The position numbers and the translations under genes were made by a program. Below are positions 13,566 through 42,085 of a stretch of DNA of 64,000 bases, piece by piece. Numbering within the stretch: position 1 is the stretch's first letter; every line of letters starts with the position of its first letter. The notes under the pieces were generated by a model that worked only from the letters and a program-made list of their open reading frames with translations, had not been told where the DNA came from and searched no databases. Source of the DNA: a virus; IMG/VR virus record IMGVR_UViG_3300044675_002751, positions 1 through 64,000 of that record. One strand, given 5' to 3'.

Positions 13566-14033
13566 TTATTTATATGGTTGATAAGCTGTTTTACCTCCAG
13601 ACTTTACAGCTTTAAGCATCTGCTTACGCTGCTTACCAGAAGTTTCGTAAGACACATGTACCCAGTCAGGGTTTTTGTCTGTACCAAATTCCCAGATAAG
13701 CTGGTCAAACTCTAGATTATTCTTGATGTAGTTAAAAACATCAGCATTAGATACTCCAGACGCTGATCCGTCCATGTCTATGTCAATAGCTTCACCTGAA
13801 CAATGTTGAGAGGTTAAACTTCCACCGATAGCAGCATTCAGTTCTTTACTTCTGTAACCAGAACTAATGTGAATAGGCACTTTAAAATGCTCACGTATAG
13901 GTTCAAATATTTTCTCAGCTAGTTTCTTGAAATTCTCAAGATGTTCAGCAGTGGGCTGGTTAGAAATACCTTTACGTTTGGCTGAGTCAGAGCGTGTGAC
14001 TTCAGCCAGGCTTAAATGCTTGGAAAGTTGCAT
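13566..14033 (-). CDS. M15-type zinc peptidase endolysin
   Basis: 155 aa with the M15 D-Ala-D-Ala carboxypeptidase/L-Ala-D-Glu peptidase signature. SGYRSKELN is followed by SQHCSGEAIDID (His77 and Asp84 as zinc ligands) and DWVHVSYE (His126, third ligand). It hydrolyses peptide bonds of peptidoglycan stem peptides. It starts directly with the domain and has no signal peptide. Together with the amidase it gives two different cuts in the same wall. Confidence 0.9.
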   Translation of the reverse strand: MQLSKHLSLAEVTRSDSAKRKGISNQPTAEHLENFKKLAEKIFEPIREHFKVPIHISSGYRSKELNAAIGGSLTSQHCSGEAIDIDMDGSASGVSNADVFNYIKNNLEFDQLIWEFGTDKNPDWVHVSYETSGKQRKQMLKAVKSGGKTAYQPYK

Positions 14034-14050
14034 AGAATATGGAGTTTAGA

Positions 14051-14239
14051 TTATAAGCTGTTATTCCTAGGCTTAGCCTTTACAACCTTTTTCTTTTTAG
14101 GTTGCAACACCTCTTCTTCAGGAACAATTACAACAGGTTGTTCTTCAACCACAGGCATATACTCTTCTGCTATAGTAACAGGAAGTTCTACTGGTTTCTT
14201 AGAAGAAAACATCTTGGCAAAAAAGCTGAACAGTTTCAT
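14051..14239 (-). CDS. 62-aa Pro/Val/Lys-rich protein
   Basis: MKLFSFFAKMFSSKKPVELP is followed by an acidic Pro-Val segment and a basic tail (LQPKKKKVVKAKPRNN). The amphipathic start could touch the membrane. It belongs to the lysis cassette; no family recognised. Confidence 0.6.
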   Translation of the reverse strand: MKLFSFFAKMFSSKKPVELPVTIAEEYMPVVEEQPVVIVPEEEVLQPKKKKVVKAKPRNNSL

Positions 14240-14241
14240 AT

Positions 14242-14859
14242 TTATTTTTTAAAGGTGAGTCTCCAGTAAGATTGCACTCCATAACCTACCTGCATACCAG
14301 GCATCAGAGTCACATATCCACCGATTATCTTATCATTTTTAGTCTTGTACAAAACACCTAGTTGTGTGCTGTTTTGAAAAGACTTATTAGAAGCAAATCC
14401 ACCACCTATATATAATTCTCCTTTCTTTGGAGCTTGTACTGTCTTTGTTATAAAGATGCTGTCTCTTATAATGGGTATCATATAATCAGCCATATAAGAC
14501 CTAATACCCAACTTATTAGCTTTTACGGTGTCATATACTATCACGTGACCTAGAGTACCAATCTTAAAAGTGTCTTCGTATATGTTTTTAGCCAGGTGTT
14601 CTTTAACTAATTCCTCATACTGAACTTTCAAGCTGTCATACATTGGATCAGCTATGTATTCAGGAGGTAACGTATCATGTATCACCTTTGTAATAACCAT
14701 TGGTTTCTTTACTACGGTGTCATAATGTTCCCATACAGTGTCTGTTTTGTACAAGGTGTCAGACTGAACAGCTGGTATATCAGAACTACATCCTTTAATC
14801 TGACTCATCAATAAGTAGCCTAAAGTAAAACCGGCTACAATAAGTAGTAATTGTCTCAT
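14242..14859 (-). CDS. 205-aa envelope protein, spanin candidate
   Basis: MRQLLLIVAGFTLGYLLMSQ is a hydrophobic N-terminus ending in IKGCSS; a lipobox-like Cys is possible but not canonical. The middle is rich in Asp-Thr repeats and helix. The last 60 residues (GELYIGGGFASN to the C-terminus) alternate like outer-membrane beta-strands and end in aromatic YWRLTFKK. A protein spanning both membranes would act as a single-chain spanin. This is inferred from topology. Confidence 0.65.
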   Translation of the reverse strand: MRQLLLIVAGFTLGYLLMSQIKGCSSDIPAVQSDTLYKTDTVWEHYDTVVKKPMVITKVIHDTLPPEYIADPMYDSLKVQYEELVKEHLAKNIYEDTFKIGTLGHVIVYDTVKANKLGIRSYMADYMIPIIRDSIFITKTVQAPKKGELYIGGGFASNKSFQNSTQLGVLYKTKNDKIIGGYVTLMPGMQVGYGVQSYWRLTFKK

Positions 14860-14868
14860 ATATTGGTT

Positions 14869-15165
14869 TTAACATTCTTCCTCATCTTCCATTTCATTCT
14901 TAGCAGGTAAGAACTCTGTAGTAATGAGTTTTATAGGGGCCGGTATTGGATCCTGGTTATTTTTAGATGATATTGGAGATTGTATTGGATATATCATCCT
15001 TTCCAGATTGTCTATTCTAGTCTTATCTATGTTGCTTTGAGCAAGTAAAACCTTTACATCACTCTTAATCTCTTTTATCTCTTGCCAGATAAAAATGCCT
15101 ATAATGGAAACCATTGTAGGAAACAACCAAACTTTTATTTTATCTATAGCAGCACTACTTGACAT
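14869..15165 (-). CDS. 98-aa membrane-anchored coiled-coil protein
   Basis: One transmembrane segment (VWLFPTMVSIIGIFIWQEI) is followed by a heptad-like region (IKSDVKVLLAQSNIDKTRID) and an acidic Pro-rich tail ending EEEC. It is co-transcribed with the spanin candidate. Function unknown. Confidence 0.65.
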   Translation of the reverse strand: MSSSAAIDKIKVWLFPTMVSIIGIFIWQEIKEIKSDVKVLLAQSNIDKTRIDNLERMIYPIQSPISSKNNQDPIPAPIKLITTEFLPAKNEMEDEEEC

Positions 15166-15188
15166 CTCACATTACGTTTAAAAGGTTA

Positions 15189-15440
15189 TTAAGCTGGTAA
15201 ACGAAACTCCAGTACGTTTCCTTTGGGTGTTACTTTGCTGATAATCAAGCTGTTAGGTATTATTTGGTTTTTACTGTCTCTACGTACAAAATATCTCAAA
15301 CCATCAGGGTGAGCTTTAAACTGACTTGCAGTTGTTGTAGGAATCTCTAAAGAAACAGAAGGTACAATGCTGTTAGACATCATAGTACCTGGAATCGGAA
15401 ACCCTAAAGCATCCTTTTGAGCATAGAACTTTTTAGCCAT
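15189..15440 (-). CDS. 83-aa hypothetical protein, first gene of the lysis cassette
   Basis: MAKKFYAQKDALGFPIPGTM recalls the N-terminus of small phage structural or cement proteins (AKKFYA...). The rest is beta-like. As the first gene after the divergent promoter it may be abundant. No family assigned. Confidence 0.65.
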   Translation of the reverse strand: MAKKFYAQKDALGFPIPGTMMSNSIVPSVSLEIPTTTASQFKAHPDGLRYFVRRDSKNQIIPNSLIISKVTPKGNVLEFRLPA

Positions 15441-15483
15441 AATAACAGGTTTTAAACTTTAAAACTGTACATCTTTGATACAG

Positions 15484-15533
15484 TCTACAATATAATATAC
15501 AAAATCTTGTAGACTTTCCATACATTTGTAGAT
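15484..15533. promoter_or_regulatory. divergent promoter region with paired TTGTAGAC motifs
   Basis: GTCTACAA (15484-15491) is the inverted form and faces the lysis cassette on the minus strand. TTGTAGAC (15507-15514) and a variant TTGTAGAT (15526-15533), inside TACATTTG, face the replication block on the plus strand. The two perfect octamers form an inverted repeat 15 bases apart. This 110-base gap is the only divergent gap between the two large blocks. Confidence 0.6.
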
Positions 15534-15550
15534 CTAAATATTAGAAGTTT

Positions 15551-16048
15551 ATGACAGAATCACGTGTTTATGCAGTTCAGTTAGAAAAGAAACTCATTAA
15601 TGAGTTCAAGCAGAAGTTTAATGAAAAATTTGGGTACGAGCCTGTTGTGTTCACTCAGGTTGAAAACTCCCCGTATGCTATGCCAATGATGTCTTTACAG
15701 CAGTTAGCAGAATATTTTGAACCGTTTCTACCTTATTTGTATGGTAAAAAACTTACCCTGTTTTGCAAAAGCAGAAAAAGAGAAGTAGTAGAACTCCGGA
15801 TGATGTACTGTTTTTTAGCCCGTATGATGAAATATAAGCTGGAAACGGTTGGTAAAATGTTGGGGGGTCGTGACCACACTACAATCATACATAATGTAAC
15901 ATGCTTTACTAATCTGATGGAAACAAACGATCAGTTTAGAGATAAGTTTTTTGAAATCCTAAATCACATAAAAGAAAACCATGAGTCATCAAATCTGGAT
16001 AAACTTAATCAAGCACAATGTGAGTCCGAATCTGTTATACTTTCTTGA
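15551..16048 (+). CDS. DnaA domain IV-like DNA-binding protein
   Basis: 165 aa. Residues about 50-140 match the C-terminal DNA-binding domain of DnaA: a helical scaffold (RKREVVELRMMYCFLARMM) then LETVGKMLGGRDHTTIIHNV, the DnaA signature GGRDHTTVLHA. There is no AAA+ ATPase domain, so it is a stand-alone domain IV, which in DnaA binds DnaA boxes. It is the first gene of the replication block, consistent with origin recognition or interference with host DnaA. Its end overlaps the next gene by 68 bases. Confidence 0.8.
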   Translation: MTESRVYAVQLEKKLINEFKQKFNEKFGYEPVVFTQVENSPYAMPMMSLQQLAEYFEPFLPYLYGKKLTLFCKSRKREVVELRMMYCFLARMMKYKLETVGKMLGGRDHTTIIHNVTCFTNLMETNDQFRDKFFEILNHIKENHESSNLDKLNQAQCESESVILS

Positions 16049-16571
16049 TTGTTGCCGTAATAAAATTAAACCTACAAATATCATAAATGCAGACGCTGAA
16101 AGGATTATAGCCCATTCAAAAGGTTTGCTTGATGATAATGGTGTACTAACAGCAAAAGCTCTTGTAGTGCTAGAAGATTTTGAAACACTCTTGGTTAAAA
16201 CTAAGAAAAAAGTAACTACAGAAGTTTTGGGAGATAACTTTCTAGAACAGATTGACATATACAGGCAACTATTTCCAGCAGGTATATTACCTACAGGTGT
16301 AGTGGGTAGATCTACTGTTCAGGAAGTAAAAGATAAGTTCGTATGGTTCTTTAAAAAGTATCCTGAATTTACTTGGGACACAGTATTAGAAGCTGCTAAC
16401 TATTATAAGTTTTTAAAAGATAATCCAGAAAAAAGAAAATATATGATGAATGCTTCAGCTTTCATTCAAAAAACAGATACAATTACCAAAACGGTTAAGT
16501 CCACCCTGGCAGAATACTGTCAGATGATCATAGATGATCCAGATGTCATCTTTAAAGAAAATCAACAATAA
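15981..16571 (+). CDS. 196-aa hypothetical replication-block protein
   Basis: MSHQIWINLIKHNVSPNLLY starts inside the DnaA-like gene; a later start would remove the LLYFLDCCRNKIKP segment, which looks genuine. The C-terminal part (FKKYPEFTWDTVLEAANYYK, then SAFIQKTD) is helical and resembles small phage proteins that sit before DnaB helicases and may load them. Function inferred only. Confidence 0.7.
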   Translation: MSHQIWINLIKHNVSPNLLYFLDCCRNKIKPTNIINADAERIIAHSKGLLDDNGVLTAKALVVLEDFETLLVKTKKKVTTEVLGDNFLEQIDIYRQLFPAGILPTGVVGRSTVQEVKDKFVWFFKKYPEFTWDTVLEAANYYKFLKDNPEKRKYMMNASAFIQKTDTITKTVKSTLAEYCQMIIDDPDVIFKENQQ

Positions 16572-16573
16572 AC

Positions 16574-16756
16574 ATGTCTGCAACTGAAAAAACAGTTCAC
16601 AAGCTACTCTTAAGTATTATTTACGCACTTTTTAACTGGATGATCGTCAACTGGTTAGTTGTAGAACTATCCTTTTGGAAATATCTAATTATAGAACTTT
16701 TCTTGTTAGTCTCCATGAAGTTCTATATATTTACAACCCGTAAAATGAATCTGTAA
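16574..16756 (+). CDS. 60-aa membrane protein
   Basis: Two hydrophobic segments (LLSIIYALFNWMIVNWLVV and YLIIELFLLVSMKFYIF). It overlaps the next gene by one base (TAATG). A membrane protein between replication genes might tether the replisome or be an accessory; no evidence decides. Confidence 0.65.
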   Translation: MSATEKTVHKLLLSIIYALFNWMIVNWLVVELSFWKYLIIELFLLVSMKFYIFTTRKMNL

Positions 16757-16968
16757 TGCAAAAAATCCCAGAAACAAATGAAGAAGAAATTAGAGAACTA
16801 TTTGAAAAACTTTCAGTAGAAGTACCGGGTACTAATGGACTTAGAGCCATGAACCTGCAGGCCTTTAAATTAGGCGTAGATAAAATGATGAACCAAGCTT
16901 TTGTTGAAGGAAGTCAAAATTCACTAAAAACTGCTGAAGACATCATAAACAGAGTCTTCAACAAATAG
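16756..16968 (+). CDS. 70-aa helical protein
   Basis: MQKIPETNEEEIRELFEKLS is acidic and helical. It ends in an amphipathic helix (EGSQNSLKTAEDIINRVFNK). It directly precedes the DnaB-like helicase. No family recognised. Confidence 0.65.
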   Translation: MQKIPETNEEEIRELFEKLSVEVPGTNGLRAMNLQAFKLGVDKMMNQAFVEGSQNSLKTAEDIINRVFNK

Positions 16969-16973
16969 TAGAA

Positions 16974-18044
16974 ATGACCGGACAACAAAATCCTTTTGGT
17001 GGTAAGAGTTATTCAGAGGTCCTCAGAGAAGGTCTCAAGTATATAGATGACCGCAGAACAGGAAGGGTAAAGTCATTCAAGACTCCCTGGACCGGCCTGA
17101 ATTATGCGGGTATTGGCGGACTGGAATGGGGTTCAATGTTAACCATTGGTGCCAGACCAGGTGCAGGTAAAACCATGATAGTTTCCCAGATACTGAGGGA
17201 GTCACGTCTTCACAATCCGGACCAGGATTTTTCTATCCTGGAATTCCAGTTTGAGATGGGTGACAAACAGTATGCAGCCAGACAGTTTGCTGCTGAAATG
17301 GCTTTAGATTATAACCAAGTGCTAAGTAGTTACAAAATGCTTGATGACTTCATTTATAAACAAATGGAACAGTATCTAAAAGATACAGAAGCATTAGAAA
17401 AATTAGGTGTCCAGCGTACTTTGATTGGTAAACCTCAAACTGTTTCCGATATGGAAAAAGCTATTAGGTTTTATCATAAACAAATGAAAGCTAAACACAT
17501 GATTGTAACTATAGACCACTCATGGCTTATTAAAAAAGCAGCTGGAGAAAAAGATAAGTTTGACGTACTGTATAGTACAGCAGAAATGCTCATGCAGTTG
17601 AAAAACGAAATCCCAATCATTGTCTTAATGATTACCCAGATGAACAGAACAATGGAAGAAGCTTCTAGACTACATCCTGGTCAAGTGGCTAACTACCCTA
17701 CTTCCTCAGACATTTTTGGAGGTGACGCTTTAATGCAATCATCAGATATGGTAATAGCCATAAACCGACCACATAAAGTGAACATAAATGTCTATGGTCC
17801 TAAGAAGTATGCTACACACAAAGATCAGATCTATATGCACCTGTTAAAAGTGCGTAACGGTGGAGATGATAATAATGTATTGTTTATGAACGGAGAGTTT
17901 AATAAACAAAAGATTGTTGAAACTATAGAGCCACAGATAGCATCTACTTCTAATGGATACATACCATTTAACCCAGGTCGTGGACGAGGTGGAAGTAACA
18001 ACACAAACAGTACTATATCAGCAGATATAGGATCAGAACTTTAA
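16974..18044 (+). CDS. DnaB-like replicative helicase (SF4)
   Basis: 356 aa, RecA-like core only, without the N-terminal primase-interaction domain of bacterial DnaB. Walker A is GARPGAGKT (59-67), the Walker B strand is MIVTIDHSWL, and LMITQMNRTMEE matches motif H3. GGDALMQSSDMVIAINRP matches the sensor/arginine-finger region. It unwinds DNA at the fork. A Gly/Asn/Ser-rich tail follows. Its neighbours are the DnaA-like protein, primase, SSB and Sak4-like genes. Confidence 0.9.
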   Translation: MTGQQNPFGGKSYSEVLREGLKYIDDRRTGRVKSFKTPWTGLNYAGIGGLEWGSMLTIGARPGAGKTMIVSQILRESRLHNPDQDFSILEFQFEMGDKQYAARQFAAEMALDYNQVLSSYKMLDDFIYKQMEQYLKDTEALEKLGVQRTLIGKPQTVSDMEKAIRFYHKQMKAKHMIVTIDHSWLIKKAAGEKDKFDVLYSTAEMLMQLKNEIPIIVLMITQMNRTMEEASRLHPGQVANYPTSSDIFGGDALMQSSDMVIAINRPHKVNINVYGPKKYATHKDQIYMHLLKVRNGGDDNNVLFMNGEFNKQKIVETIEPQIASTSNGYIPFNPGRGRGGSNNTNSTISADIGSEL

Positions 18045-18061
18045 ATTTTAAACCATACAAA

Positions 18062-18646
18062 ATGTCACAATTAAATTTTGTACAAGCAGAGTCTGTAGAC
18101 CGGTATGGGAATCCTAAAGAGTGGAAAAAAATGAAACTCGATCAGATCCGTGAATATCATGGACCTCTGATTAGAGCTCTTGGAATTTCTCCTCTTGACT
18201 TTAACATGAAAATGCCTTTTTATGACAGAGTAGGACGGCAAGTAATTGGTGTATTTGGCTCAGAATTCAAAAAAGATAAAGGTTTCTATTTTGAACTAGT
18301 GACTAGAGATCTAGATCCATTAGAGTCAGATCGTAAAGTGTATAGGATTGCTCGTAATGACAATCATGAAGAAGAGTATGAAATGAACGAAAAAGGTTCA
18401 TTTTTGGTACCAGTAGAAGAACTACGTGTAATTAATCCTACAGGACCTCAAACTCTAACAAAGAAACTAGAGCCAGTTCAGCCAGCTCCAGTATTCAGTA
18501 CTAAAGCTCAGACAGTTGAAGAAGACGCTCCTTATTCAGAAATGACTATTAGAGATTATGTTGCTATTCAAACTGGAAAACCTGTAAGCTTAAAACCATG
18601 GCTGAACGAAATATTACAACAGAGTAACCAATCATTTCCATTTTAA
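18062..18646 (+). CDS. 194-aa hypothetical protein
   Basis: MSQLNFVQAESVDRYGNPKE begins a charged protein with a Pro/Gln-rich linker (LEPVQPAPVFSTKAQ) before a helical tail. It is placed between helicase and Sak4-like ATPase, two bases before the latter. Function not recognised. Confidence 0.75.
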   Translation: MSQLNFVQAESVDRYGNPKEWKKMKLDQIREYHGPLIRALGISPLDFNMKMPFYDRVGRQVIGVFGSEFKKDKGFYFELVTRDLDPLESDRKVYRIARNDNHEEEYEMNEKGSFLVPVEELRVINPTGPQTLTKKLEPVQPAPVFSTKAQTVEEDAPYSEMTIRDYVAIQTGKPVSLKPWLNEILQQSNQSFPF

Positions 18647-18648
18647 TT

Positions 18649-19332
18649 ATGGCAGCAGGAATTCTAGTTATTGCAGAATCCGGTGCAGGTAAATCTACAG
18701 CTATAGAAAACCTAGATCCGGCAGAAACATTTATTATCAATGTAGCTAACAAGCCCCTTCCTTTTAGAGGTTGGAAAAAGAAGTACACCGTATGGAGTAA
18801 AGACAATCCTAACGGTAACATGTACTACGGAAACTCACCTCAAAATATAGAGGCTTGTATTAAGTATGTCAGTGAAAAACGTAAAGAGATCAAAAACCTA
18901 GTTATTGATGACTTTCAGTACATGAGTTCTTTTGAATTCTTTGACCGTGTAGACGAAAAAGGTTACGAAAAGTTTACCCAAATCGGTGCACATCTGGCAC
19001 GTATTGCTCGTATGCCAAAAGACCTGAGAGAAGATCTTATGGTATTTTTTCTTACACATGCTGAAGAGTCTACAGACTTAGAAGGTAAACGTAAGTTTAA
19101 AGCCAAGACTATCGGTAAAATGGTAGATGAGAAACTCACCTTAGAAGGTCTTTTCTCTATTGTGATATTCGGTAAGATCAAAAAGAACAAGGATGGAGAA
19201 ATCCGTCATGTCTTTGAGACACGTAACAACGGAGAAAACACATGCAAAACTCCTAAAGATATGTTCTCAGAGTTTGAAGTGGCTAACGACCTGCAGGTAG
19301 TTAGAAAAGCTATACTTGATTATGAAATCTAA
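18649..19332 (+). CDS. Sak4-like RecA-family ATPase
   Basis: 227 aa. Walker A is AESGAGKST (8-16). The Walker B strand is NLVIDDFQYM, with a sensor-like FFLTHAEES. The C-terminus (VFETRNNGENTCKTPKDMF) matches the conserved end of phage ATP-binding proteins of the Sak4/AAA_24 type. Sak4 enzymes anneal single strands in phage recombination together with a partner SSB, and an SSB-like gene follows. Annotation rests on motifs and order. Confidence 0.8.
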   Translation: MAAGILVIAESGAGKSTAIENLDPAETFIINVANKPLPFRGWKKKYTVWSKDNPNGNMYYGNSPQNIEACIKYVSEKRKEIKNLVIDDFQYMSSFEFFDRVDEKGYEKFTQIGAHLARIARMPKDLREDLMVFFLTHAEESTDLEGKRKFKAKTIGKMVDEKLTLEGLFSIVIFGKIKKNKDGEIRHVFETRNNGENTCKTPKDMFSEFEVANDLQVVRKAILDYEI

Positions 19333-19364: not shown

Positions 19365-19976
19365 ATGTTCAGTACAAAAGGACAAGAAGTAAAATCTGGT
19401 AGTGGAACTATGAAATCATTCCAACCAGGCGTAGTTTATGCCCACATTTACAGTGGCAACATTAGAACCTCCAAAAACGGAGATAAGAAGTCTTTGGAAC
19501 TCATTCTTGAGGGTCCAGCTCTTGAAAACTTTGAAGGATGGAGCATTGACAAAAATGATCCAGAAGGACCTAAGTTTCAGGGTTTATCAAGCAGAGTAGC
19601 AGCAACAATTTGGACAGACCAATGGGCTGACAGTAATATTGCAAACAATGAAATTTTGCATAGAGTGTTAGTCATTGCAGAACAGCTGGGTCTTAAGAAA
19701 GCAGTTGATGAAATATCTGCTAACAATATAGAAGATTGGACTGCTCAAGCAGTAAATATTCTAAAAGGACATGATATCTACTGGTTCTTAAACGGAAAAG
19801 AAGAAGAATACAATGGTAAAACTATTGTAAAACTTTCTTTCCCCCGCTATAAGTTCTGCTCACTTGATGAAAACAAGTTGGACAAGTTTGATAAAAATAA
19901 TAAGTATCATTTCCGTGCACTTGAAACAAAGCCTGTAACAAGCTTTGAGCCAGTAAATGATGACTTTGATATGTAA
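19365..19976 (+). CDS. single-stranded DNA-binding-like protein
   Basis: 203 aa, MFSTKGQEVKSGSGTMKSFQ. A beta-rich core with a basic strand (GNIRTSKNGDKKSLELILEG) and an acidic C-terminus ending DDFDM, like the acidic tip of SSB proteins. It is located between a Sak4-like ATPase and primase, where phages place their SSB. The OB fold is inferred. Confidence 0.65.
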   Translation: MFSTKGQEVKSGSGTMKSFQPGVVYAHIYSGNIRTSKNGDKKSLELILEGPALENFEGWSIDKNDPEGPKFQGLSSRVAATIWTDQWADSNIANNEILHRVLVIAEQLGLKKAVDEISANNIEDWTAQAVNILKGHDIYWFLNGKEEEYNGKTIVKLSFPRYKFCSLDENKLDKFDKNNKYHFRALETKPVTSFEPVNDDFDM

Positions 19977-20058: not shown

Positions 20059-21045
20059 ATGTTCACAACTAAAAACTTGGTACACGATATTAAAGATGTT
20101 CCTGTACCCTGGATATTTGAACACTTCTGTAAACTAAAAGAAAAACTATCAGGTCAAGATGTGAAAATTAAAAGTATGTTCAATCCAAAAGAACGTACAC
20201 CTTCTATGTGTATATATTATGATACCAAAAAAGGTAATTATCATTTCAAAGACTTCTCTACGGGTAAAGGAGGTTCAGCTATAGAATTAGTAAAAGAAGT
20301 TACACAACTACCTTATTATAAAGCATGCAGCACTGTAGTAGAAAAATTCAATGATTATGTTTTACACAACAACGGTGGGTATGATCTACAAGAATTCAAA
20401 CAAGCCAGTAAGTATAAAGTATCACAGTACGTATTCCGTTCCTGGAATACTTCTGACCAGTACTTTTGGACCCAGTTTAACATCGGGTCCCGTTTGCTGG
20501 ACGAGTACTGTGTTAAACCTTTAGAATATTATACACTCGTAAAAGAAGTAGACGGTGAGTCTCGTGAATTAAATATACGCAGCAATTATCTGTATGGGTA
20601 TTTTAAGAAAGACGGAAGTCTGTATAAAATATATCAACCAAAAACGTTGGATAAGAAATTTATAAAGGTTAACGATTACATCCAAGGTTCTGAACAAGTT
20701 AAAAATCAGAAGTATCTAATAATAACTAGTTCACTCAAAGATATCATGGCTCTTCGTAGCCTAAAAATTCCTATAGATATTATAGCTCCGGACTCAGAAA
20801 ACTCTATCATCCGTAAAGAAATAATGCAACAGTATATTAAAGACTATGAAAAAGTTATAGTACTGTTTGATTATGATGATGCCGGTATAAAAGCTATGGA
20901 GCGGTACCAAGAAGTATACCCGCAGGTAACTACATGTATTCTTCCTATGAGTAAAGATCCTGCAGACTCTATTAAAGATTATGGTGCCAAAGAAGTTTTC
21001 TTCAGACTGGTTCCTATTTTAAACAAAAAGTTGGAGAACTTATAG
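20059..21045 (+). CDS. DnaG-type DNA primase with Toprim domain
   Basis: 328 aa. The N-terminal part resembles the zinc-ribbon/primase start (KIKSMFNPKERTPSMCIYYD then YHFKDFSTGKGG) but lacks the cysteines. The C-terminal Toprim domain has LIITSSLKDIMAL, where the usual catalytic Glu position is Ser, and VIVLFDYDDAGIKAM with the DxD-type metal site. Many phage primases carry this TSSLKD or TKSLKD variant. It makes RNA primers for PolB and the helicase. Confidence 0.85.
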   Translation: MFTTKNLVHDIKDVPVPWIFEHFCKLKEKLSGQDVKIKSMFNPKERTPSMCIYYDTKKGNYHFKDFSTGKGGSAIELVKEVTQLPYYKACSTVVEKFNDYVLHNNGGYDLQEFKQASKYKVSQYVFRSWNTSDQYFWTQFNIGSRLLDEYCVKPLEYYTLVKEVDGESRELNIRSNYLYGYFKKDGSLYKIYQPKTLDKKFIKVNDYIQGSEQVKNQKYLIITSSLKDIMALRSLKIPIDIIAPDSENSIIRKEIMQQYIKDYEKVIVLFDYDDAGIKAMERYQEVYPQVTTCILPMSKDPADSIKDYGAKEVFFRLVPILNKKLENL

Positions 21046-24461: not shown

Positions 24462-24470
24462 TGTGGATAA
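24462..24470. promoter_or_regulatory. perfect DnaA-box consensus, possible origin site
   Basis: TGTGGATAA is the reverse of TTATCCACA, the strong DnaA box. It lies in the noncoding gap between 24450 and the PolB start. No second perfect box was seen in the window, and the phage encodes a DnaA domain IV-like protein, so it may be a single-site origin or control element. One hit can also be chance. Confidence 0.35.
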
Positions 24471-24539: not shown

Positions 24540-26474
24540 ATGTCACAAGCTATACACTGGGTAATGGACTACGAAACCATTTGCAACACGTTTGTTGCAG
24601 TATTCCAGCATTATAAAGATGACTCTGTCAGAAAAGTGTTTGTAATAAACAAAGACCAAAATGACATTGTTCCGTTTGTTAAATTCTTGTCTGAATGTAA
24701 GACAAAGAATCAATGGCATATCTCTTATAACGGACTAGACTTTGACGCCCAGATCACCCAGCACATAATGAAGAATCAACCGCTTTATACAAAAATGTCA
24801 GGTGATAAGATAGCTGAAAAAATCTATGGATATGCTCAGGAAACTATAGCCCGAAAAAACCGGGGTGAGTTTGTAGAGTTTGCACCTTATAAGCTATGGA
24901 TTAGACAGATAGATCTGTTTAGACTAAACCACTGGGACAATAAAGCCAAAAGTTCTTCTCTAAAATGGGTCCAGTATGCTATGGACTGGGAGAATGTAGA
25001 AGAGATGCCTCATCACCATGCTGAACCTGTGACAGACAGTCACACTTTGCAGAATGTGATCAGTTATTGCATTAATGACGTTCTTTCTACCAAACAGATC
25101 CTGGATCATTCTAAAGAGCAGATCAAGCTAAGACAGGTATTGACCAAAGAATACGGAATAGATCTCTATTCTGCATCAGAACCCCGTATATCTAAAGAAC
25201 TATTCTTGTATTTTCTAGAAAAGAAGACTGGTATTGAAAAAGCAGAACTGAAACGCATGCGTACACCACGTACTCATATTGTTCTAGGGGACTGTATTCT
25301 TGACTATGTCAAGTTTGAAACTCCTGAAATGCAAAAGATGCTAGACTTCTTTCGTAAAACTGTAATCACATCTACTAAAGATGGATTTAAGTACAGAATG
25401 GAATACAAAGGAGTAAAGACTGATTACGGTTTAGGTGGACTCCACGGTGCAACAGACGCAGGTCTTTATGAAGCCAAACCAGGGTGGACAATAATGACGT
25501 CTGACGTTACTAGTTTCTATCCTAATCTGGCTATCAAGAACGGCTTTGCACCTCAGCATTTACCTAAGAAAGAATTCCTGGATCTGTACGAATGGTTCTT
25601 TGAAGAAAGAAAGAAAATTCCTAAAACTGATCCTAAGAACTATGTGTACAAGATTATTCTTAACAGTACGTATGGTCTTACTGGTGACGAGAATTCTTTT
25701 CTGTATGATCCTCGAATGACCATGCAGATTACAGTGAATGGTCAGCTGTTGCTCTCTATGTTATATGAGATGTTATCTCTAGCTATACCTGAAGCTGTAC
25801 CTCTAATGCAGAACACAGATGGTTTAGAAATGATGATTCCTTCAGGATCTGTAGAAACTTATATGAAAGTGTGTGCTGAATGGGAAAAGATGACCAAGCT
25901 TTCCCTGGAACATGACGAGTATAAGAAAATGATTATCCGTGACGTAAACAACTACATAGCAATCAACGTAAAAGATAAAGTTAAGTGTAAAGGTGCATTT
26001 GAGTGGGAAGACTTAGAGAAAAAGAAAGTAGCTACGTTCCATAAAAACAAGAGCTTCTTAATTATCCCCAAAGCTATCTACGCTTATTTTGTCAACGGTG
26101 TGCATCCAGAAGACTTTCTTAGAGACAACACCAATGTTATGGACTACTGTGCCGGTGTTAAATCTAAAGGATCTTGGTACTATGAAGAACGTTATGTAGA
26201 TAAAGGTGAGCTAAATGTCAACCGCCTGCAGAAGATAGTTAGATATTATGTATCTAAAAACGGAGGTAAAATTGTCAAGTGTCATCCAGACGGAAGAGAA
26301 ATCCAAGTGGAGTCTGGCAGCTGGCTACAAACTGTAGTCAACCAAATTGATCCTTCAGTTTCTATAGACCAATATGATATCAACTATAGTTACTATCTAG
26401 AAGAAATCAATAAACAGATACAAGGTATTGAGGTTTACAAACCTAAATCTATTACACAACTTTTACTTTTTTAA
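24540..26474 (+). CDS. family B DNA polymerase
   Basis: 644 aa. The 3'-5' exonuclease motifs are MDYETI (Asp10, Glu12), NGLDFDAQ, and YCINDVLS (YxxxD). Polymerase motif A is SDVTSFYPN, motif B is YKIILNSTYGL (KxxxNxxYG), and motif C is QNTDGLE, a variant of the usual YxDTDS. It is compact and lacks the long insertions of large PolB enzymes. It replicates the phage genome with the DnaB-like helicase, primase and SSB-like protein. Confidence 0.95.
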   Translation: MSQAIHWVMDYETICNTFVAVFQHYKDDSVRKVFVINKDQNDIVPFVKFLSECKTKNQWHISYNGLDFDAQITQHIMKNQPLYTKMSGDKIAEKIYGYAQETIARKNRGEFVEFAPYKLWIRQIDLFRLNHWDNKAKSSSLKWVQYAMDWENVEEMPHHHAEPVTDSHTLQNVISYCINDVLSTKQILDHSKEQIKLRQVLTKEYGIDLYSASEPRISKELFLYFLEKKTGIEKAELKRMRTPRTHIVLGDCILDYVKFETPEMQKMLDFFRKTVITSTKDGFKYRMEYKGVKTDYGLGGLHGATDAGLYEAKPGWTIMTSDVTSFYPNLAIKNGFAPQHLPKKEFLDLYEWFFEERKKIPKTDPKNYVYKIILNSTYGLTGDENSFLYDPRMTMQITVNGQLLLSMLYEMLSLAIPEAVPLMQNTDGLEMMIPSGSVETYMKVCAEWEKMTKLSLEHDEYKKMIIRDVNNYIAINVKDKVKCKGAFEWEDLEKKKVATFHKNKSFLIIPKAIYAYFVNGVHPEDFLRDNTNVMDYCAGVKSKGSWYYEERYVDKGELNVNRLQKIVRYYVSKNGGKIVKCHPDGREIQVESGSWLQTVVNQIDPSVSIDQYDINYSYYLEEINKQIQGIEVYKPKSITQLLLF

Positions 26475-34570: not shown

Positions 34571-37500
34571 TTACTTACGTCCAAACTCCATCTTTCTTAA
34601 GGCAGTTACCGGGTCTACCTGAGATCCGGTAACTCCAAAGATGTCAGCTACGTCATTTAACAGTTTTGGCTGTCCCTCTTTTTGGAACCAGTAAGGACCA
34701 GCATCTCTTTTATAATAACCAGCTGGGTTATCACTTAGAAACTGACTTGTGTGATCCAAGAATTCCAAAGGTTTCTTAATCGTAGTACCATACAGTGTTC
34801 TAGGATCTAATATAGCACCTGATGTACTTTTGAGTACCTTCCAGTTTCTTCCTAATGTTGTTGGACCCCATGAGCCAAATGATTCTACTTCAGAAAGAGT
34901 ACCCAGTGTAGCAACTAACCCATGGTTAAACAACCAACCACCGAAGTTAAAGTCATCTTGATTTAAAGCACCACTTCGTTTTCTCATCTTTTCAAACCTG
35001 TCTTCATCACCTTCTTCGTATCCAAAGACAGATGAAAGTATTATTAAAATAGCCATCTGATGAGTTATGTCTGATGCAAACTTCAGCATGTTTCTCTTTT
35101 GTTCATCTGTTGTCCACTGCATGCTAGATGTACCATATTTCATGATATCTCTTGCCACCTGTATTACGGAGGTATAATAACCTGTACTAACCCCGCCAAG
35201 TGCTGCACTAGGACGTGTGACCGCAACTCTGTTCATCAGCATTGATGTAAAGTAACGTTTTAAGAACATGGCTATAGACATGAGAGCATAACGCTGTGCT
35301 TCAGGCTGGTCCATACGTGCGTATGTACCATTAAGTCTATTACCTAACTCGTGTATCCTGTTCTTAACTTCATTGAACTTTTTACCACCTGGTGCATACT
35401 CTTTGTCTATACCAGACTTAAGTTCTATCTGACCATTTACAACTTCAAATGCATCTATATAGTCTATCTCTTTAGGTTTACCATCAACTATCTGCTCTAC
35501 CTTTACATGATGCATTACACCGCTAAAGAGTTCAACAACAGTTTCTATTTCTAACCACTTTCTTGGAGACATCATAAAACTCAGACTGGCTGCATCTGAT
35601 GCCAAAGAACGACCAAACTGTCCACCCATATCAGTTGCAGAACCATCACCTAATGTTGTATTAAGTACCTCTTGTGTAGGATCAAAAATCTGCAACAGCT
35701 GCGTATCCAAAGAACGGTTGCCTGTCTTGTATAGTTGTGAAGAATATATTGAGAGCATCTTGAAAGCACGAAACTTACCACGCCGATAGCTGTTCCAGTT
35801 TATATATCTACCACTGCTGGCTTCATTCTGCAGCTGAACAATAGCACTTTGTCTGTTTTTGATAGCTGAAGGTAAGATGTTCATTGAAAACATTCCAAAG
35901 CTAGCTAACTTAAGTAAGGCATTTATACTCTTCAAAGCAATAGGTGTATCACTTAACCAGCCTGTTTTAGTCTTACCTTCAAACTCTCTTTCATATAAGT
36001 TACCAATTGCCTTAGCCCTAACACTAGCTCCTTTTTTAGAAAGATAAGATTTGACACCAGTCTTCTGATACTGCCATTTATTAATCTTACCCATTTCCTT
36101 AATAGCATTGTCTGGGCTGCCTACTGCTTTTTTCAAAGCTTGAGCAAAAGGATTAAGCTCAATAAGTTTTTTCTGCTTTAGACCAGAGTGCATATATCTA
36201 AGCATGCTGTCTGCTATATTCATAGACACCTGCCCTGGATCCAGAGCATAGAGACCAGTGATAGGTACCTTGTTGATTTCTTCATCAAACATGTCTGCAT
36301 AAATCAGCTGCTCAGGCTTAAAGTTTAATCCATCCTGAACATCATCTGGAGCTTTAGCAAAATACTGTTTTACACGTGTAGCCCATTCATAAAACTTATT
36401 ACCGGTCTTACTAGCCTGCAATGATTCCAAAGCAGGTTTACGGTAACGTGGTATTTGCATATACAATTTACTTTCACGAGCTAATCCTTCCTGGAACTTA
36501 AGATGATATTCTTTCATCTTTTCCAGTACAGCAAATGCTGCTGGATCTTCACGGCGTAGTTTTTCATAATCAGGATTGTAATACCTGTCATCTACAGCTC
36601 CTTCTTCTAAAGACTTAGGTAGCCAGTTACCACGGTTATCTATAGTCTTACCCACTTCACGCTTTGTACGGAATTCTTTCTTTACACCACGGTAGAAATA
36701 AGAAAGGTTTGGTTTACCCATAATCACTTCACCGCTGGATAATGTGATCTTTTCGTAATGATCAGGGTTGTTAGGACGTGTACGGTTCCATATAAAAAGA
36801 CGCTCATATACAATCTTGGTGTCATTAATACTTTTATCAAACACCTCTTTAGCTATATGATTATCTTTAAACCATTGCTCAAACTCAGGAGACTCTTTGA
36901 ACAGCTCAACATAAGATGCAGGATCTAATAATGTAGAGGCAGAGTCGTTATCTACAGGAGCTCTGCCCATCTTACCTAAGTAGTTATTTATAATATCTAC
37001 ATAGTAATCCGTAGCTTCCTTACTCTGAAGATCACCTAGCTTAGAATAAAGAGCTTGCATTTCAGTTTTAGTAAACTTATCTACGCCAAGGCTATTCTTA
37101 CGTTCAATAAGCTCATCCATTCTTCCACGCTCCTCTTGAGAAAGCTTTTCACGAGCTACAATCTTTTGGAAGTAACCAGAAAGTTCATCCATTTCTTCTC
37201 TGGTAAGACCAGAGAAACCTGCCATAGAGTTACGTTTAGCAAGAGCTGCCTCTTGTAACTGACGTACTTTCTTTTTACTATTCTCAGATATATCTGTACC
37301 AATCACCTGACCGTCCTGGTCACGAAACCCGGTTGCTATATCAAGCATACCTTCCATTTCTTCTGAAGAGTCAACAGCTTTACGTATTTCAGGACTGAGA
37401 CCGGCCATTAATTCGTTAAGATCTGCTAACACTTTATTACGTTCTTCAAAAAACTCTGGAGTGTAAGCTATAACTGTATTGTTCTTAATCCACTTATCAC

Positions 37501-40500
37501 GTTTTTCCTTATACTCATCTGACTTCTCATCTACACCATTGTCTACAAGACTCTGCTCAAAACGCTTTAAGTTAGATTCAAATAAACCCTGTATAGGAAC
37601 CCATTCAAAAAAGTCTCTTGATGCTTTACGATACTCTTTTTCAATCTTAGCCAGCTCCAGATCACGACCTGTTTTTGGATTACCATTAAGATCAGTGAGA
37701 GAAGCAAGCTGAGAATACTCTCTCCAAAGAATCTTTTTCTCTTCTGCAATAAAGTCAAGTGCATCATCATCATAGTTCATAGCATCCAGTTCTTGAATCT
37801 GGTTAAGCAAGATCTGCTTACGCCTGTATGCCTCACGACCCATCTCAGAATCATAGATCTTCTCACGCTCATAGTACTCAGGTACATACTCCTGGTGGAA
37901 ATAATCTCTACGTAACTTACGCATTTCTTTGAGCTTCTGATCAGCCAAAGTCTGGTCACCATCAGCTACTGCCTGGTCATAATCATATTTAAGTTGGGCA
38001 GAGTCAGCAGTGAAGTTATTAAACTTATCTTTAAAAGACCACACCTCTTTAGTAGCAAAATTACCTTTCTCATCTATGTAAGGAACTTTTTCTAGGCTAA
38101 CTATTTTACCCATCAGCTCAGAATAGTTTCTACGACTATAACCAGCTGCGTTCAATAATGGGTCAAGATCACGTACAAAATCATTTATATTACGTTGGGC
38201 TTTGGCATCTACGTCATTATATGCATTCTTAATAAACATAGCAAAACCTCCCACAATAGGATCTGGTGAGTTTGTATATGCTTCTAAAAATGCAGAGTAA
38301 CTATTAGTGTCACCAAGTTTACCTGTCAGCATATCTTTAAGTTTTTCCTTATCAATACGCATCTTTTCATACTTTGCCTTCACTTCATCTATCTTAGCTT
38401 TAGGAGCATTCTTGGCTACAAGAGCATCTATTTCTGCAGTGTACATCCTATCAATCTCTTTAGCCAATGGTTCTAAAGCCTCGTATATAACATCGTTTAC
38501 ATTATCACTATAGATCTTGTTAATGATCCTTTCTGTCTGAGCAACTGTATTTTGAACACCAGATACCACTCTTCCAAATTCTGTATTTGGATTAAGACCT
38601 GCATCAGCTAAACGGTCAACGGTTTCATTAATAAACTTATCCCAGTTACGTACAAGAAGATCATAGTAAAATATGTTCCCTATCACCTCTTTAGAATCAC
38701 CTTGTTTAGCCAACTCACGGACGTGATTTAGAATACTGTCACTCAGTTTCTGCAAACGAAGCATAGAGTGTACAAAACTTTGGGTAGTCTTAGCCCTTAT
38801 TGTAAGATCGTCAAAGATGTCAGCAAGTCTTTCATCTATCTCAGAGTTAGAAAGCGTAGACTTCAGTTCTTGTAACTGACCCCTACCGGTTTCATCTACC
38901 AAGAACTTACGGGCTTCGTTGTAGTTCTTGTTTTCACGTATACGTCTAATGTGATTAGACACTACATCATAAAAACGTTTTACAGAATTAGACACTCCGC
39001 TATATTCTACAGCATTAAGCTCATTCATAAAGTTACTGATATCACGGATATAATCTACCATGTCAGCTTCTGTAACAATATCAGTTGAGATGTTGAATTT
39101 ATTTCCTCTGAGCATCTCAGCCAGTTCTGCCAATGAAGTGTCAGTAGATAGCTTGTCTATATTTATAGAAGTACCAAATACCTTACGGAACATTTGCTTT
39201 AGGGCAAATATCATCTTCTTAATAAATTCACTAAACCCAACACTATCTTTTACACCATTTATCTGATTCTGAGCTTTAGCCGTTAATCCTCTAACAATAA
39301 CTTCCTCCCTGAACTTCTGATCTGTCTCATTAACCTCAGGATATAACGCCTGTACACCAGCAATAATACTTTGTCCTTCTGGAGTAGAAGCAAGTTGGTT
39401 GTAAAGATTATTAAACAGTGTAGGATTCTGAACTGCAACAGCAGCTATAAGTGGGTGAGAAAACTCATGTAGGACATTCTCTGTAGAAAAACCACCGTCT
39501 ACAAAATACACCTGACCATTAAAAAAGAAAGCTTTTTCTCCTCTCCATGGATTAGATGCATTAGCAGTTATCTCGGCAGCTTGTGCTGCAGTAACCATAG
39601 TGTAAGGAACACCTAGGTTCTCAGCTATGGTATCAGCCATAGTGCGGACAATATTTTGTCCTACCTCTATCTTCTGAGCTTGTTCTGTAGGTAATGTTGG
39701 CTCACTAACAACAGGATTAGTTAACTGAGAAAGGATTACATCCCCTGTTCTATCTTCTTGTCTAAATCCTTCAGTATCTCTTTGATCTCCTTGATCTCTT
39801 CTTTGGACATCTTGTCCTGCTGATACATTGCCAACATTCCTTGAAACGTTCCCTTCACCGACTCTAGAGAGCTCGTTTCCTTCAAAGCTTTTTGATAGAT
39901 TTCTTGTAGAGGACTTGTCATATTCATATTTTAGTTTTTTATATGTATCAAAATGTTTCTTGTATACAGAACGCATTAACCCCTCAAAGTAGGGATACTT
40001 GCCTGTGGCATATATGTTACCATATAATTTAGCAAGAGCTGTTGTAAAGCTAGCACCTTCACCCGACACTGTAGTGTGATTAATTTCGTGGATGATGATA
40101 TGGGTCATAAGACCAGTAGCTGCTTCTGCACTTTCTATGTTAAAAGACAATGGGTTAATAAAAATAGCATCAATAACCTTACTAACATGCACACCGCCAT
40201 AACTCTTATCTATAGAAACACCTGCAAAAAACTTACGGTCTGTACCTGAAAGTTTTTCATACTGGTAACCCAATTCTTTACCAGCAAATCTTACCATATC
40301 ATAGACTACAGAGCCAAAGTCACTAAAAAACTCAATAGCTCCTGGTACGGCCAGGTAATCAAAGTTAGTATTGTTATGATACTGAGGCTCATTTTCTTTA
40401 AAACCGCTGGTGTCTACAGTGTTTTTACCAAGTTCAATATCTTTATCAGCTTTAAAGCTAGAACCATATTTTTTCTCACGCTCTACTTCTACCTGATCAC

Positions 40501-42085
40501 CTGTCTCTTCATCCTTTACGCTATTACCAGTAATAACAAGCCTAGTTTTCTTGCGTGGTAATACGTCTTTGTACTTCTCATTTAGTCTCTTACGTTCAGC
40601 AATAGCATCATCCACCTCTTTATAAATCTTCTCTCTTTCTTCAGGAGTAAGTATCTTGTTTGGATCAGTCTTAGGTAGAGCACGGATGTTCTTAAATACA
40701 TCTGCTGCGTCTTTTTCTGCCTCACCGGCTGCATACTTTCGTAGATATGCATACAAGCTGTTAATGTCTTCGGTGACAGTGTTTTTAAAATCTTCTCTTT
40801 GATTATTGAAAGGATACTGCTCAGCAGTAGATCCAACAGACGGTTTAATGTTTATTACTATATTGTAAGGAATAGGCTCATAGTCTCTAAATTCAATACG
40901 TTTACTAAACTGAAAGAGTCCAGAAGAAAGTACCTCATGTCTTGGACTTTCTGTCTTCTCTTCTCCTACATATACTTCTGCTTCACCCCATGCAAACTTT
41001 ACATTAGAGAGCAGTGGTGGTAGTACTTCTTTAGAAATGTTTGCACCAATAGGTAACACTTGATTTTTTGTACTATTTCTCTTAGTTACATTCACACTGA
41101 CATTCAAATTACCAATAAGTGGACGAGTTAAAATGTCAAATCTGTCTACAGGATTAGATGCATACTCACCTGGGAAATCAATAGATCTGGTAGTTCCTTC
41201 AGGAGTAGTATAACTCTCAGGTATCTTAACCTTTACAAACGTACCATTAGGTTCAGATGTAGGTTCAGTACGGATCTGAAAGTCATCATTATATAGTTCA
41301 AGATTAGTAGCTTTTATAGAAGTCTTTATACCGTCTCGAACGGTAGCTACTTCTACATACTCACTACCTAATAAAAATTGCACTTTAGCCAAACCAAAAC
41401 CTCCAGAACGCTCACCTTCAGAAAGTCCTTCTTTATTAGTACCACCTATAGAAAGAAATGCACTCTTTACAATGTCAGGTGTCATACCAATACCATCATC
41501 TTTTATAGATATAGTACGCTCATCATAGTTAACATCAAGAGTGATATTACCCGGAGCGGCTGTATTTACAACCTGGGTACTTGGTTTAAAGTTTTGAATT
41601 TTTTGCTCTAAATCCTGCCTTCTATTAAACAATTCATTGACTTTCCATGGATCACCTGTAAGTACCTCACCTTGATCATCAAATGTAATCTTTTTACTTT
41701 CAGCAGACATGTCTACCATCACTTTATTAAACTCCCTGATAAGAGCTTGCTTTTGCTCCTGTGGATTACCAACTACAGTTTCTTTCTTACTAAGATTCTG
41801 TACGGTCTTAATGGCATCAAATGAGTTTTGTAACAACTCCTTTACTGCAACTTGTGCCAAAGGTTTGTTATACATAGTAGGACCAAGCAGCATAAGTAAC
41901 TGCTTCTTGTTTACACCAATCTGTCCTTGTTCTACAGAACCTTCTCTGTTATACATGACATATTCTTTGGCAGTAGGAATGCTCCCATTACCAATGGTCA
42001 TATAAGCACGGAAAGCTTCTTTCTCTCCGAGCTGTTCAACGAGACTAGTCCACTCTACTGAATTTTTGTTAGGGCAGGTTAACAT
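34571..42085 (-). CDS. giant polyvalent protein: GHKL ATPase plus zincin motifs (2504 aa)
   Basis: The N-terminal 330 residues form a GHKL (Hsp90/MutL/histidine kinase) ATPase: N box ELLQNSFDA (Glu83, Asn87), G1 box KDDGIGM (195-201), G2 box SGGFGLAK (227-234). Two zincin-like motifs follow, HEINH (666-670) and HEFSH (873-877). A Gly/Asn/Arg/Gln-rich linker lies at about 720-785. Most of the rest is long helical, charged sequence, with hydrophobic segments near the C-terminus. The design matches phage polyvalent proteins and giant crAss-like virion proteins injected with DNA. It is the last gene of the minus-strand run, 17 bases after the RNA polymerase gene. Confidence 0.8.
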   Translation of the reverse strand: MLTCPNKNSVEWTSLVEQLGEKEAFRAYMTIGNGSIPTAKEYVMYNREGSVEQGQIGVNKKQLLMLLGPTMYNKPLAQVAVKELLQNSFDAIKTVQNLSKKETVVGNPQEQKQALIREFNKVMVDMSAESKKITFDDQGEVLTGDPWKVNELFNRRQDLEQKIQNFKPSTQVVNTAAPGNITLDVNYDERTISIKDDGIGMTPDIVKSAFLSIGGTNKEGLSEGERSGGFGLAKVQFLLGSEYVEVATVRDGIKTSIKATNLELYNDDFQIRTEPTSEPNGTFVKVKIPESYTTPEGTTRSIDFPGEYASNPVDRFDILTRPLIGNLNVSVNVTKRNSTKNQVLPIGANISKEVLPPLLSNVKFAWGEAEVYVGEEKTESPRHEVLSSGLFQFSKRIEFRDYEPIPYNIVINIKPSVGSTAEQYPFNNQREDFKNTVTEDINSLYAYLRKYAAGEAEKDAADVFKNIRALPKTDPNKILTPEEREKIYKEVDDAIAERKRLNEKYKDVLPRKKTRLVITGNSVKDEETGDQVEVEREKKYGSSFKADKDIELGKNTVDTSGFKENEPQYHNNTNFDYLAVPGAIEFFSDFGSVVYDMVRFAGKELGYQYEKLSGTDRKFFAGVSIDKSYGGVHVSKVIDAIFINPLSFNIESAEAATGLMTHIIIHEINHTTVSGEGASFTTALAKLYGNIYATGKYPYFEGLMRSVYKKHFDTYKKLKYEYDKSSTRNLSKSFEGNELSRVGEGNVSRNVGNVSAGQDVQRRDQGDQRDTEGFRQEDRTGDVILSQLTNPVVSEPTLPTEQAQKIEVGQNIVRTMADTIAENLGVPYTMVTAAQAAEITANASNPWRGEKAFFFNGQVYFVDGGFSTENVLHEFSHPLIAAVAVQNPTLFNNLYNQLASTPEGQSIIAGVQALYPEVNETDQKFREEVIVRGLTAKAQNQINGVKDSVGFSEFIKKMIFALKQMFRKVFGTSINIDKLSTDTSLAELAEMLRGNKFNISTDIVTEADMVDYIRDISNFMNELNAVEYSGVSNSVKRFYDVVSNHIRRIRENKNYNEARKFLVDETGRGQLQELKSTLSNSEIDERLADIFDDLTIRAKTTQSFVHSMLRLQKLSDSILNHVRELAKQGDSKEVIGNIFYYDLLVRNWDKFINETVDRLADAGLNPNTEFGRVVSGVQNTVAQTERIINKIYSDNVNDVIYEALEPLAKEIDRMYTAEIDALVAKNAPKAKIDEVKAKYEKMRIDKEKLKDMLTGKLGDTNSYSAFLEAYTNSPDPIVGGFAMFIKNAYNDVDAKAQRNINDFVRDLDPLLNAAGYSRRNYSELMGKIVSLEKVPYIDEKGNFATKEVWSFKDKFNNFTADSAQLKYDYDQAVADGDQTLADQKLKEMRKLRRDYFHQEYVPEYYEREKIYDSEMGREAYRRKQILLNQIQELDAMNYDDDALDFIAEEKKILWREYSQLASLTDLNGNPKTGRDLELAKIEKEYRKASRDFFEWVPIQGLFESNLKRFEQSLVDNGVDEKSDEYKEKRDKWIKNNTVIAYTPEFFEERNKVLADLNELMAGLSPEIRKAVDSSEEMEGMLDIATGFRDQDGQVIGTDISENSKKKVRQLQEAALAKRNSMAGFSGLTREEMDELSGYFQKIVAREKLSQEERGRMDELIERKNSLGVDKFTKTEMQALYSKLGDLQSKEATDYYVDIINNYLGKMGRAPVDNDSASTLLDPASYVELFKESPEFEQWFKDNHIAKEVFDKSINDTKIVYERLFIWNRTRPNNPDHYEKITLSSGEVIMGKPNLSYFYRGVKKEFRTKREVGKTIDNRGNWLPKSLEEGAVDDRYYNPDYEKLRREDPAAFAVLEKMKEYHLKFQEGLARESKLYMQIPRYRKPALESLQASKTGNKFYEWATRVKQYFAKAPDDVQDGLNFKPEQLIYADMFDEEINKVPITGLYALDPGQVSMNIADSMLRYMHSGLKQKKLIELNPFAQALKKAVGSPDNAIKEMGKINKWQYQKTGVKSYLSKKGASVRAKAIGNLYEREFEGKTKTGWLSDTPIALKSINALLKLASFGMFSMNILPSAIKNRQSAIVQLQNEASSGRYINWNSYRRGKFRAFKMLSIYSSQLYKTGNRSLDTQLLQIFDPTQEVLNTTLGDGSATDMGGQFGRSLASDAASLSFMMSPRKWLEIETVVELFSGVMHHVKVEQIVDGKPKEIDYIDAFEVVNGQIELKSGIDKEYAPGGKKFNEVKNRIHELGNRLNGTYARMDQPEAQRYALMSIAMFLKRYFTSMLMNRVAVTRPSAALGGVSTGYYTSVIQVARDIMKYGTSSMQWTTDEQKRNMLKFASDITHQMAILIILSSVFGYEEGDEDRFEKMRKRSGALNQDDFNFGGWLFNHGLVATLGTLSEVESFGSWGPTTLGRNWKVLKSTSGAILDPRTLYGTTIKKPLEFLDHTSQFLSDNPAGYYKRDAGPYWFQKEGQPKLLNDVADIFGVTGSQVDPVTALRKMEFGRK

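Follow-up and report, generated by a model that had tools for sequence, protein, structure and literature searches.

A stand-alone DnaA domain IV protein, lacking an ATPase, at the head of a phage replication operon

A 165-residue phage protein, referred to here as d4, is confirmed as a stand-alone domain IV of the bacterial initiator DnaA, without the ATPase and preceded by an N-terminal part that is not recognizably DnaA-derived. Its gene is the first of a replication operon, in which it is followed by the gene for a second protein, MSHQ, and then by that for a DnaB-type helicase. The stretch of DNA analyzed, referred to as the window, comprises bases 1–64,000 of an 88,089-base virus record, and its relevant features are collected in Table 1.

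Table 1. Coordinates of d4 and of the other features of the window.
Feature	Position	Strand	Basis or remark
83-aa gene divergent from d4	15189–15440	-	Relative in 38 of 53 loci L097–L149, some of which are cut short
Divergent promoter region, lysis-side genes (-) versus replication operon (+)	15441–15550	.
17-mer GTATATTATATTGTAGA, probable late promoter element	15484–15500	-	Exactly twice in the record
TACATTTG, fits TAnnTTTG	15521–15528	+	Conserved in relatives
d4, gene for stand-alone DnaA-domain-IV protein, 165 aa	15551–16048	+	ATG start; Pfam, phmmer, AlphaFold, fold comparison
d4 N-terminal part, residues 1–46	15551–15688	+	Helix 2–27 in model; family-conserved YAxxLEKKLIxEFK..F.EK.GY.P
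DnaA domain IV fold, residues 47–145	15689–15985	+	VIA Z 13.8 and 13.4 to 3pvp and 1j1v
GGRDHTT signature and recognition helix, residues 105–125	15863–15925	+	Helix 109–125 in model
d4/MSHQ overlap	15981–16048	+	58/58 d4-bearing first-set loci (44–107 nt); 53/53 L097–L149 (17–110 nt)
MSHQ protein, 196 aa	15981–16571	+	MarR-like winged helix (residues 1–84) and helical C-terminal half without assignment
70-aa ORF	16756–16968	+	Detected in 22 of 53 loci L097–L149
DnaB-type helicase (DnaB_C only)	16974–18044	+	Family matches
194-aa conserved replication-operon ORF	18062–18646	+	Locus comparison
Sak4-like annealing protein	18649–19332	+	Family match
203-aa conserved replication-operon ORF	19365–19976	+	Locus comparison
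DNA primase	20059–21045	+	Family match
Exact DnaA box TTATCCACA, only one in window	24462–24470	-	Intergenic, upstream of DNA polymerase B
DNA polymerase B	24540–26474	+	Sequence search
3,199-aa protein	42103–51702	-	DFDID near residue 2174; matches crAss-like RNA polymerases

The identity of d4 was established by sequence and by fold. Bac_DnaA_C (PF08299) was the sole Pfam family found at E ≤ 1, with an E-value of 2.4e-12 and a score of 47.1 bits (curated cut-off, 31.5) over residues 70–116, and its profile was matched by 40 of 40 aligned family members at E ≤ 0.01. The stretch GKMLGGRDHTTIIHNV represents residues 101–116. In sequence searches of the PDB, domain IV of E. coli DnaA (1j1v) was recovered with an E-value of 7e-7 by phmmer from the single protein, and of 2e-11 from a family profile. 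An AlphaFold model, generated with 40 family members, had a mean pLDDT of 80.7, with values of 90–96 per ten-residue block across residues 51–140 and below 50 for residues 146–165; the structure alignment omitted the cut sequences L021, L039 and L057. The original prediction had called for a predicted structure to be set against domain IV, and the fold indeed matches: the model aligned with box-bound domain IV from M. tuberculosis (3pvp) at Z 13.8 over 93 residues (rmsd 1.8) and with its box-bound E. coli counterpart (1j1v) at Z 13.4 over 92 residues (rmsd 1.8), and the top non-DnaA row of the comparison reached a Z of 5.6. The DnaA recognition signature that had been claimed for this open reading frame (ORF) is thus borne out by Pfam, by the fold and by the retained base-reading residues described below.

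What surrounds the domain sets d4 apart from DnaA. No match to DnaA_N (domain I) was found in a Pfam scan of d4 at E ≤ 1, which is a sequence-level test, and no AAA+ ATPase (domain III) was found in its 165 residues, where only Bac_DnaA_C was detected. Across the 88,089-base record, which is possibly incomplete, neither the AAA+ domain of DnaA (Bac_DnaA, PF00308) nor the IstB/DnaC type (PF01695) gave a match at E ≤ 0.001, and the earlier description of a stand-alone protein of 165 residues without an ATPase therefore holds. That description did not extend to the conserved N-terminal part, to the overlap with MSHQ or to the constant location at the operon head. Residues 1–46 have no Pfam match; in the model, their helix is followed by a less certain stretch, and the fold search barely covered residues 1–39. 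In summary, d4 resembles domain IV (1j1v, 3pvp) in its fold and in the conserved equivalents of R399, R407, H434 and T435, but differs in standing alone, without AAA+, behind an N-terminal part unmatched to DnaA. A further difference is that the residue equivalent to E. coli Q408 is Met84.

The distribution of d4 was followed in two sets of viral loci. Scanning IMG/VR with the helicase yielded a first set of 80 loci, and gene presence was counted in the 62 having at least 1,600 bases upstream (18 shorter loci were dropped). The d4 gene is found at the same place in 53 of the 62 and is absent from nine; it is also present in 5 of the 18 shorter loci. When the d4 protein alone was the query, viral and genome scans gave no matches; alignment-based scans did, and a scan of IMG/VR with an alignment of d4 proteins retrieved at least 77 new loci, the first 53 of which are L097–L149 and the other 24 L150–L173. 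Fourteen of the 53 lie on first-set contigs, and three more represent identical DNA on other contigs. Besides the window, at least 97 d4-bearing contigs (58 + 39) are distinguished by contig name, near-copies included. Each of ten long relatives (80–130 kb, chosen by the authors) possesses exactly one Bac_DnaA_C gene. The length of d4 is 156–178 aa in those of L097–L148 with a complete start, and 149 aa in L149. The 24 more distant loci (L150–L173) encode stand-alone DnaA-domain proteins whose N-termini and neighbors are different, and the d4 gene order occurs in none of them. Weak matches were also seen in five plasmid records.

Within the family, the positions with which DnaA reads its box are conserved. 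Among 71 distinct proteins (leaving out the cut L021, L039 and L057, the open-ended L144 and L148, and L149), the equivalents of E. coli R399, R401, R407, H434, T435 and T436 are invariant, as assigned from a phmmer alignment of d4 with 1j1v. In the window protein, R75 and T110 are the counterparts of R399 and T435, and H109, T110 and T111 are invariant in 71 of 71. The equivalent of D433 is D in 70 of the 71, and that of K415 is R in 62 and K in nine. A study of DnaA describes R399 as reading TTA, one half of the box, through the minor groove and helix 434–451 as reading TnCACA, and box binding as defective in the R399A and T435M variants (PMC5742627). The N-terminal part is no less constrained: across 36 pairs, which are related and not independent, pN/pS was 0.147 for residues 1–46 and 0.145 for domain IV, and silent changes nearly vanish where d4 overlaps MSHQ. 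By this sequence-level measure, d4 is under purifying selection, with its N-terminal part constrained equally to domain IV. A truncated or broken dnaA is ruled out by purifying selection on both parts and by the maintained length, and a chance match to a helix-turn-helix signature by the Pfam E-value of 2.4e-12, the fold Z of 13–14 and the 71 conserved distinct proteins. Contamination with host DnaA was rejected for the window.

The gene also holds a fixed position. The order d4, MSHQ, helicase occurs in 53 of 53 loci of L097–L149, with Sak4 in 50 and the primase in 44 of the 53, the remaining loci ending too early. The AlphaFold model of MSHQ has a pLDDT of 91, and its residues 1–84 align with MarR proteins at a VIA Z of about 10 over 82 residues. 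Sequence searches of MSHQ against Pfam and the PDB returned nothing convincing, Foldseek alone found no match at E ≤ 0.001, and the C-terminal half was barely covered by the fold searches. MSHQ is conserved before the helicase even in loci without d4. In two gut crAssphages, its place is occupied by a “segregation and condensation protein B”; a relationship of MSHQ to this protein was considered and set aside, since no sequence similarity was detected with the one that was compared.

The closest cellular kin of d4 among those listed are DnaA proteins of Chitinophagaceae and other Bacteroidota. For the best 80 hits of a genome scan, 76 titles name Bacteroidota groups, Chitinophagaceae in many cases; of the other four, three give “uncultured bacterium” and one gives “Sphingomonadales”. 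The scan patterns favor RDHTT[VI][IL][HY][NS], and hence DnaA sequences of this kind. All 80 scored 48.6–57.6 bits against the window protein, compared to 16.9–37.3 bits for eight full-length DnaA proteins encoded in “phage” records. The ORFs are 475–502 aa long in 77 cases, and 168, 276 and 332 aa in the others. In contrast to d4, the Bacteroidota proteins possess an AAA+ domain (observed in the one sequence inspected) and the motif NPF[VI]IPG[LI] (in 77 of 80), and d4 has neither. Judging by these similarities, the d4 domain was likely, if not provenly, captured from a Bacteroidota DnaA.

A more general form of that motif, about [NS]P[FY][VI][FIY]PG[IL], is seen in 77 of the 80 bacterial ORFs, lying in the DnaA linker of the one inspected, and also at the N-terminus (residues 6–16) of six of the more distant viral proteins, of 126–132 aa (L150, L151, L152, L158, L164 and L167). 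No other listed ORF of the viral loci carries it, nor do the six frames of the window’s own record. It appears to be a shared docking motif, which those phages would have retained from the DnaA of their hosts. Separately, full-length DnaA (383–458 aa) is present in 8 of 13 “phage” GenBank records examined (of 55 matched). These eight (L004, L005, L006, L011, L012, L013, L015 and L016) are mostly human faecal clones, and some of them may be bacterial DNA.

DnaA-domain proteins that stand alone have been annotated before in cultured phages, and the d4 family is a well-defined variant of this kind. Examples are Gundel_1 (141 aa), Harreka_1 (145 aa), Muminvirus tooticki (112 aa) and HTVC204P (178 aa), to which the Manatee Spring record ctfjg026 adds a protein of 189 aa. 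These proteins share with d4 a domain IV without the ATPase within 112–189 aa, but their N-termini differ, their neighbors mostly differ, and tblastn similarity is mainly to domain IV. The Gundel_1 protein is encoded directly before two replication genes. The main text of the publication describing Harreka and Gundel (PMC8776804) does not contain the word “DnaA”. A search of the open-access literature, with narrow coverage of replication initiation in crAss-like phages, found no functional study of a stand-alone phage DnaA domain IV. Outside of phages, a Bac_DnaA_C-like domain ends some TnpAREP transposases, whose flanking repeats are unlike DnaA boxes (PMC6006769); a changed target is thus possible for d4 too.

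The nature of the carrier was assessed from genes elsewhere in the window. The DFDID motif of the 3,199-aa protein is one that we take to be a mark of crAss-type RNA polymerases, and a 501-aa stretch of this protein matched 74 records, among them Cellulophaga phage phi14:2 (gene 66). A 2,504-aa protein (34571–42085) follows it. The window helicase shares about 25–32% identity with crAssphage helicases (among the 30 matches listed of 51), and the order of helicase, ~180-aa ORF, Sak4, ~205-aa ORF and primase is common to the Crassvirales cr125_1 and cr115_1, which, unlike the window, have further genes before the primase. On the RNA polymerase and the replication-gene order, the carrier is classed as a putative, divergent Crassvirales-like phage. 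Bac_DnaA_C had no match in two complete gut crAssphages, and no “uncultured phage cr” record was among the 55 and 31 records matched by two d4 family members. The best ten of 728 records matched by DNA polymerase B comprise nine phages of Acinetobacter, Nitrincola, Pseudomonas and Vibrio and one that is unassigned, at about 34–38% identity.

Since an origin served by DnaA might be sought in its boxes, their occurrence was surveyed. Only two exact copies of TTATNCACA exist in the 88-kb record, 57 kb apart, one being the intergenic box of Table 1 and the other at 81931 inside a long ORF; boxes with one mismatch are at chance level (83 observed versus 94.3 +/- 9.5 expected). Ten long relatives hold 63 exact boxes versus 37 for a reversed control pattern, with a maximum of two per 200 bases. 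Neither the record nor these relatives, which are possibly incomplete, contain a cluster of boxes, and boxes as an origin were rejected on this ground. The 80 first-set loci hold 110 boxes versus about 37 expected (order-2 Markov), but in many related loci these reappear at constant positions downstream of the helicase, and the excess is taken to lie mostly inside conserved genes. An iteron array was likewise not found in 14000–17000.

The nine loci without d4 retain the genes on both sides. Their helicases (seven distinct) form one nested clade with a support of 82, in a tree made by a quick method, without bootstrap and with long branches flagged by the program. Because these helicases group in this manner, a single loss of d4 is the simplest reading. 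No other Bac_DnaA_C gene was found on the contigs of these loci, which are fragments of 5–57 kb. In their intergenic regions, the lysis-side half with its TATAATATAC core is kept, and the half before d4, with the TAnnTTTG promoter, is replaced. Given that a box cluster is lacking and that both gene and promoter are absent from one subclade, d4 is not a universally essential initiator of the oriC type. The suggestion that d4 marks a phage origin finds no support in the search for box clusters, and 9 of 62 comparable loci are cleanly without the gene.

Immediately upstream of d4 lies a divergent promoter region. The element TAnnTTTG, which TACATTTG fits, is a -7 element of Bacteroidota. On the opposite side, the second copy of GTATATTATATTGTAGA lies at L003:2804–2820 (record position 80804); the two copies precede minus-strand genes by 44 and 54 bases, and the next-best matches have four mismatches, as chance gives. 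The 17-mer probably serves as a late promoter in this crAss-like clade. Among the 39 relatives’ intergenic regions used (4 of 43 were not recovered), an exact DnaA box lies just 3′ of TAnnTTTG in ten, and the other 29 have none. The intergenic regions of the nine d4-lacking loci contain no box, and the window’s own promoter carries TTTGTAGA at this position instead. The free position N of the box is the most variable column, by a narrow margin, in 15 aligned relatives chosen from two box-holding subclades. A box in the gene’s own promoter is a hint, not proof, of autoregulation by d4.

Taking this evidence together, the reading that we prefer, and to which we give an even chance of being correct, is that d4 is a phage-side DNA-binding adaptor or regulator of the replication operon. 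Under this proposal, a phage would have taken the DNA-reading domain from a DnaA, probably one of Bacteroidota, leaving the ATPase behind, and fused it to an N-terminal module of its own. The protein would bind at the operon head, to a site resembling a DnaA box, and may control its own promoter; its N-terminal part would let it cooperate with MSHQ and the DnaB-type helicase in positioning or timing replication. It would then act like the O protein of phage lambda rather than like DnaA. Lambda O is a DNA-binding replication protein without an ATPase that stands beside helicase functions; it differs in its iteron array, which was not found around d4. The adaptor or regulator reading rests on the domain IV fold, the invariant base-reading residues, the equal pN/pS of both parts, the fixed place at the operon head, the overlap with MSHQ, the box in 10 of 39 own promoters and the parallel in Gundel_1. 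Against it stand the lack of a box cluster, the nine gene-lacking loci, the boxless promoter of the window, and the 24 distant stand-alone loci without this gene order.

A related scheme, conceivable if rather doubtful, is that of a split, ATPase-free initiator, in which the captured domain and a phage helicase-side handle would, together with MSHQ, place the DnaB-type helicase, and a site near the divergent promoter would serve as both origin and switch.

It is also possible, though unlikely, that d4 competes with host DnaA. Made early and unable to oligomerize, it would occupy boxes at the host oriC and promoters, halting host initiation and leaving nucleotides and replisome components to the phage. 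Such a role would fit with DNA-reading residues that are kept in a phage whose record is nearly boxless, with best cellular matches that are titled Bacteroidota DnaA in 76 of 80 cases, and with loss in one subclade, as expected of an accessory function. A precedent of sorts exists in YfdR of the E. coli prophage CPS-53, which also touches DnaA-dependent initiation but by a different route, in that it binds DnaA itself (PMC4776307), whereas d4 would bind DNA. A simple competitor, however, needs neither strict linkage and overlap with a replication operon nor an equally constrained N-terminal part. Two proteins of DNA-binding type, encoded by overlapping genes before a helicase, would suit an adaptor pair in replication more than a single protein that competes with host DnaA.

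Less probable still is a transcriptional switch, with d4 repressing its own early promoter and/or activating the divergent lysis-side promoter. This role would agree with the placing of d4 first, next to a divergent promoter that contains a conserved 17-mer, and with the box 3′ of TAnnTTTG in 10 of 39 intergenic regions and in none of the nine gene-lacking loci. The window’s own promoter has no such box, however, the ten related sequences represent few independent events, and phages lacking the gene retain the lysis-side half. Finally, a true initiator that opens a phage origin itself, as DnaA does, is highly improbable despite the place of d4 at the head of the replication operon, there being no AAA+ domain in d4, no DnaA-type one in the record, no box cluster, and loss of the gene in one clade.

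Whichever of these roles applies, the d4 family offers a small protein for which a DNA target is predicted, conserved adjoining partners and natural relatives that lack the gene. As such, d4 makes the start and control of genome copying in crAss-like phages directly testable.
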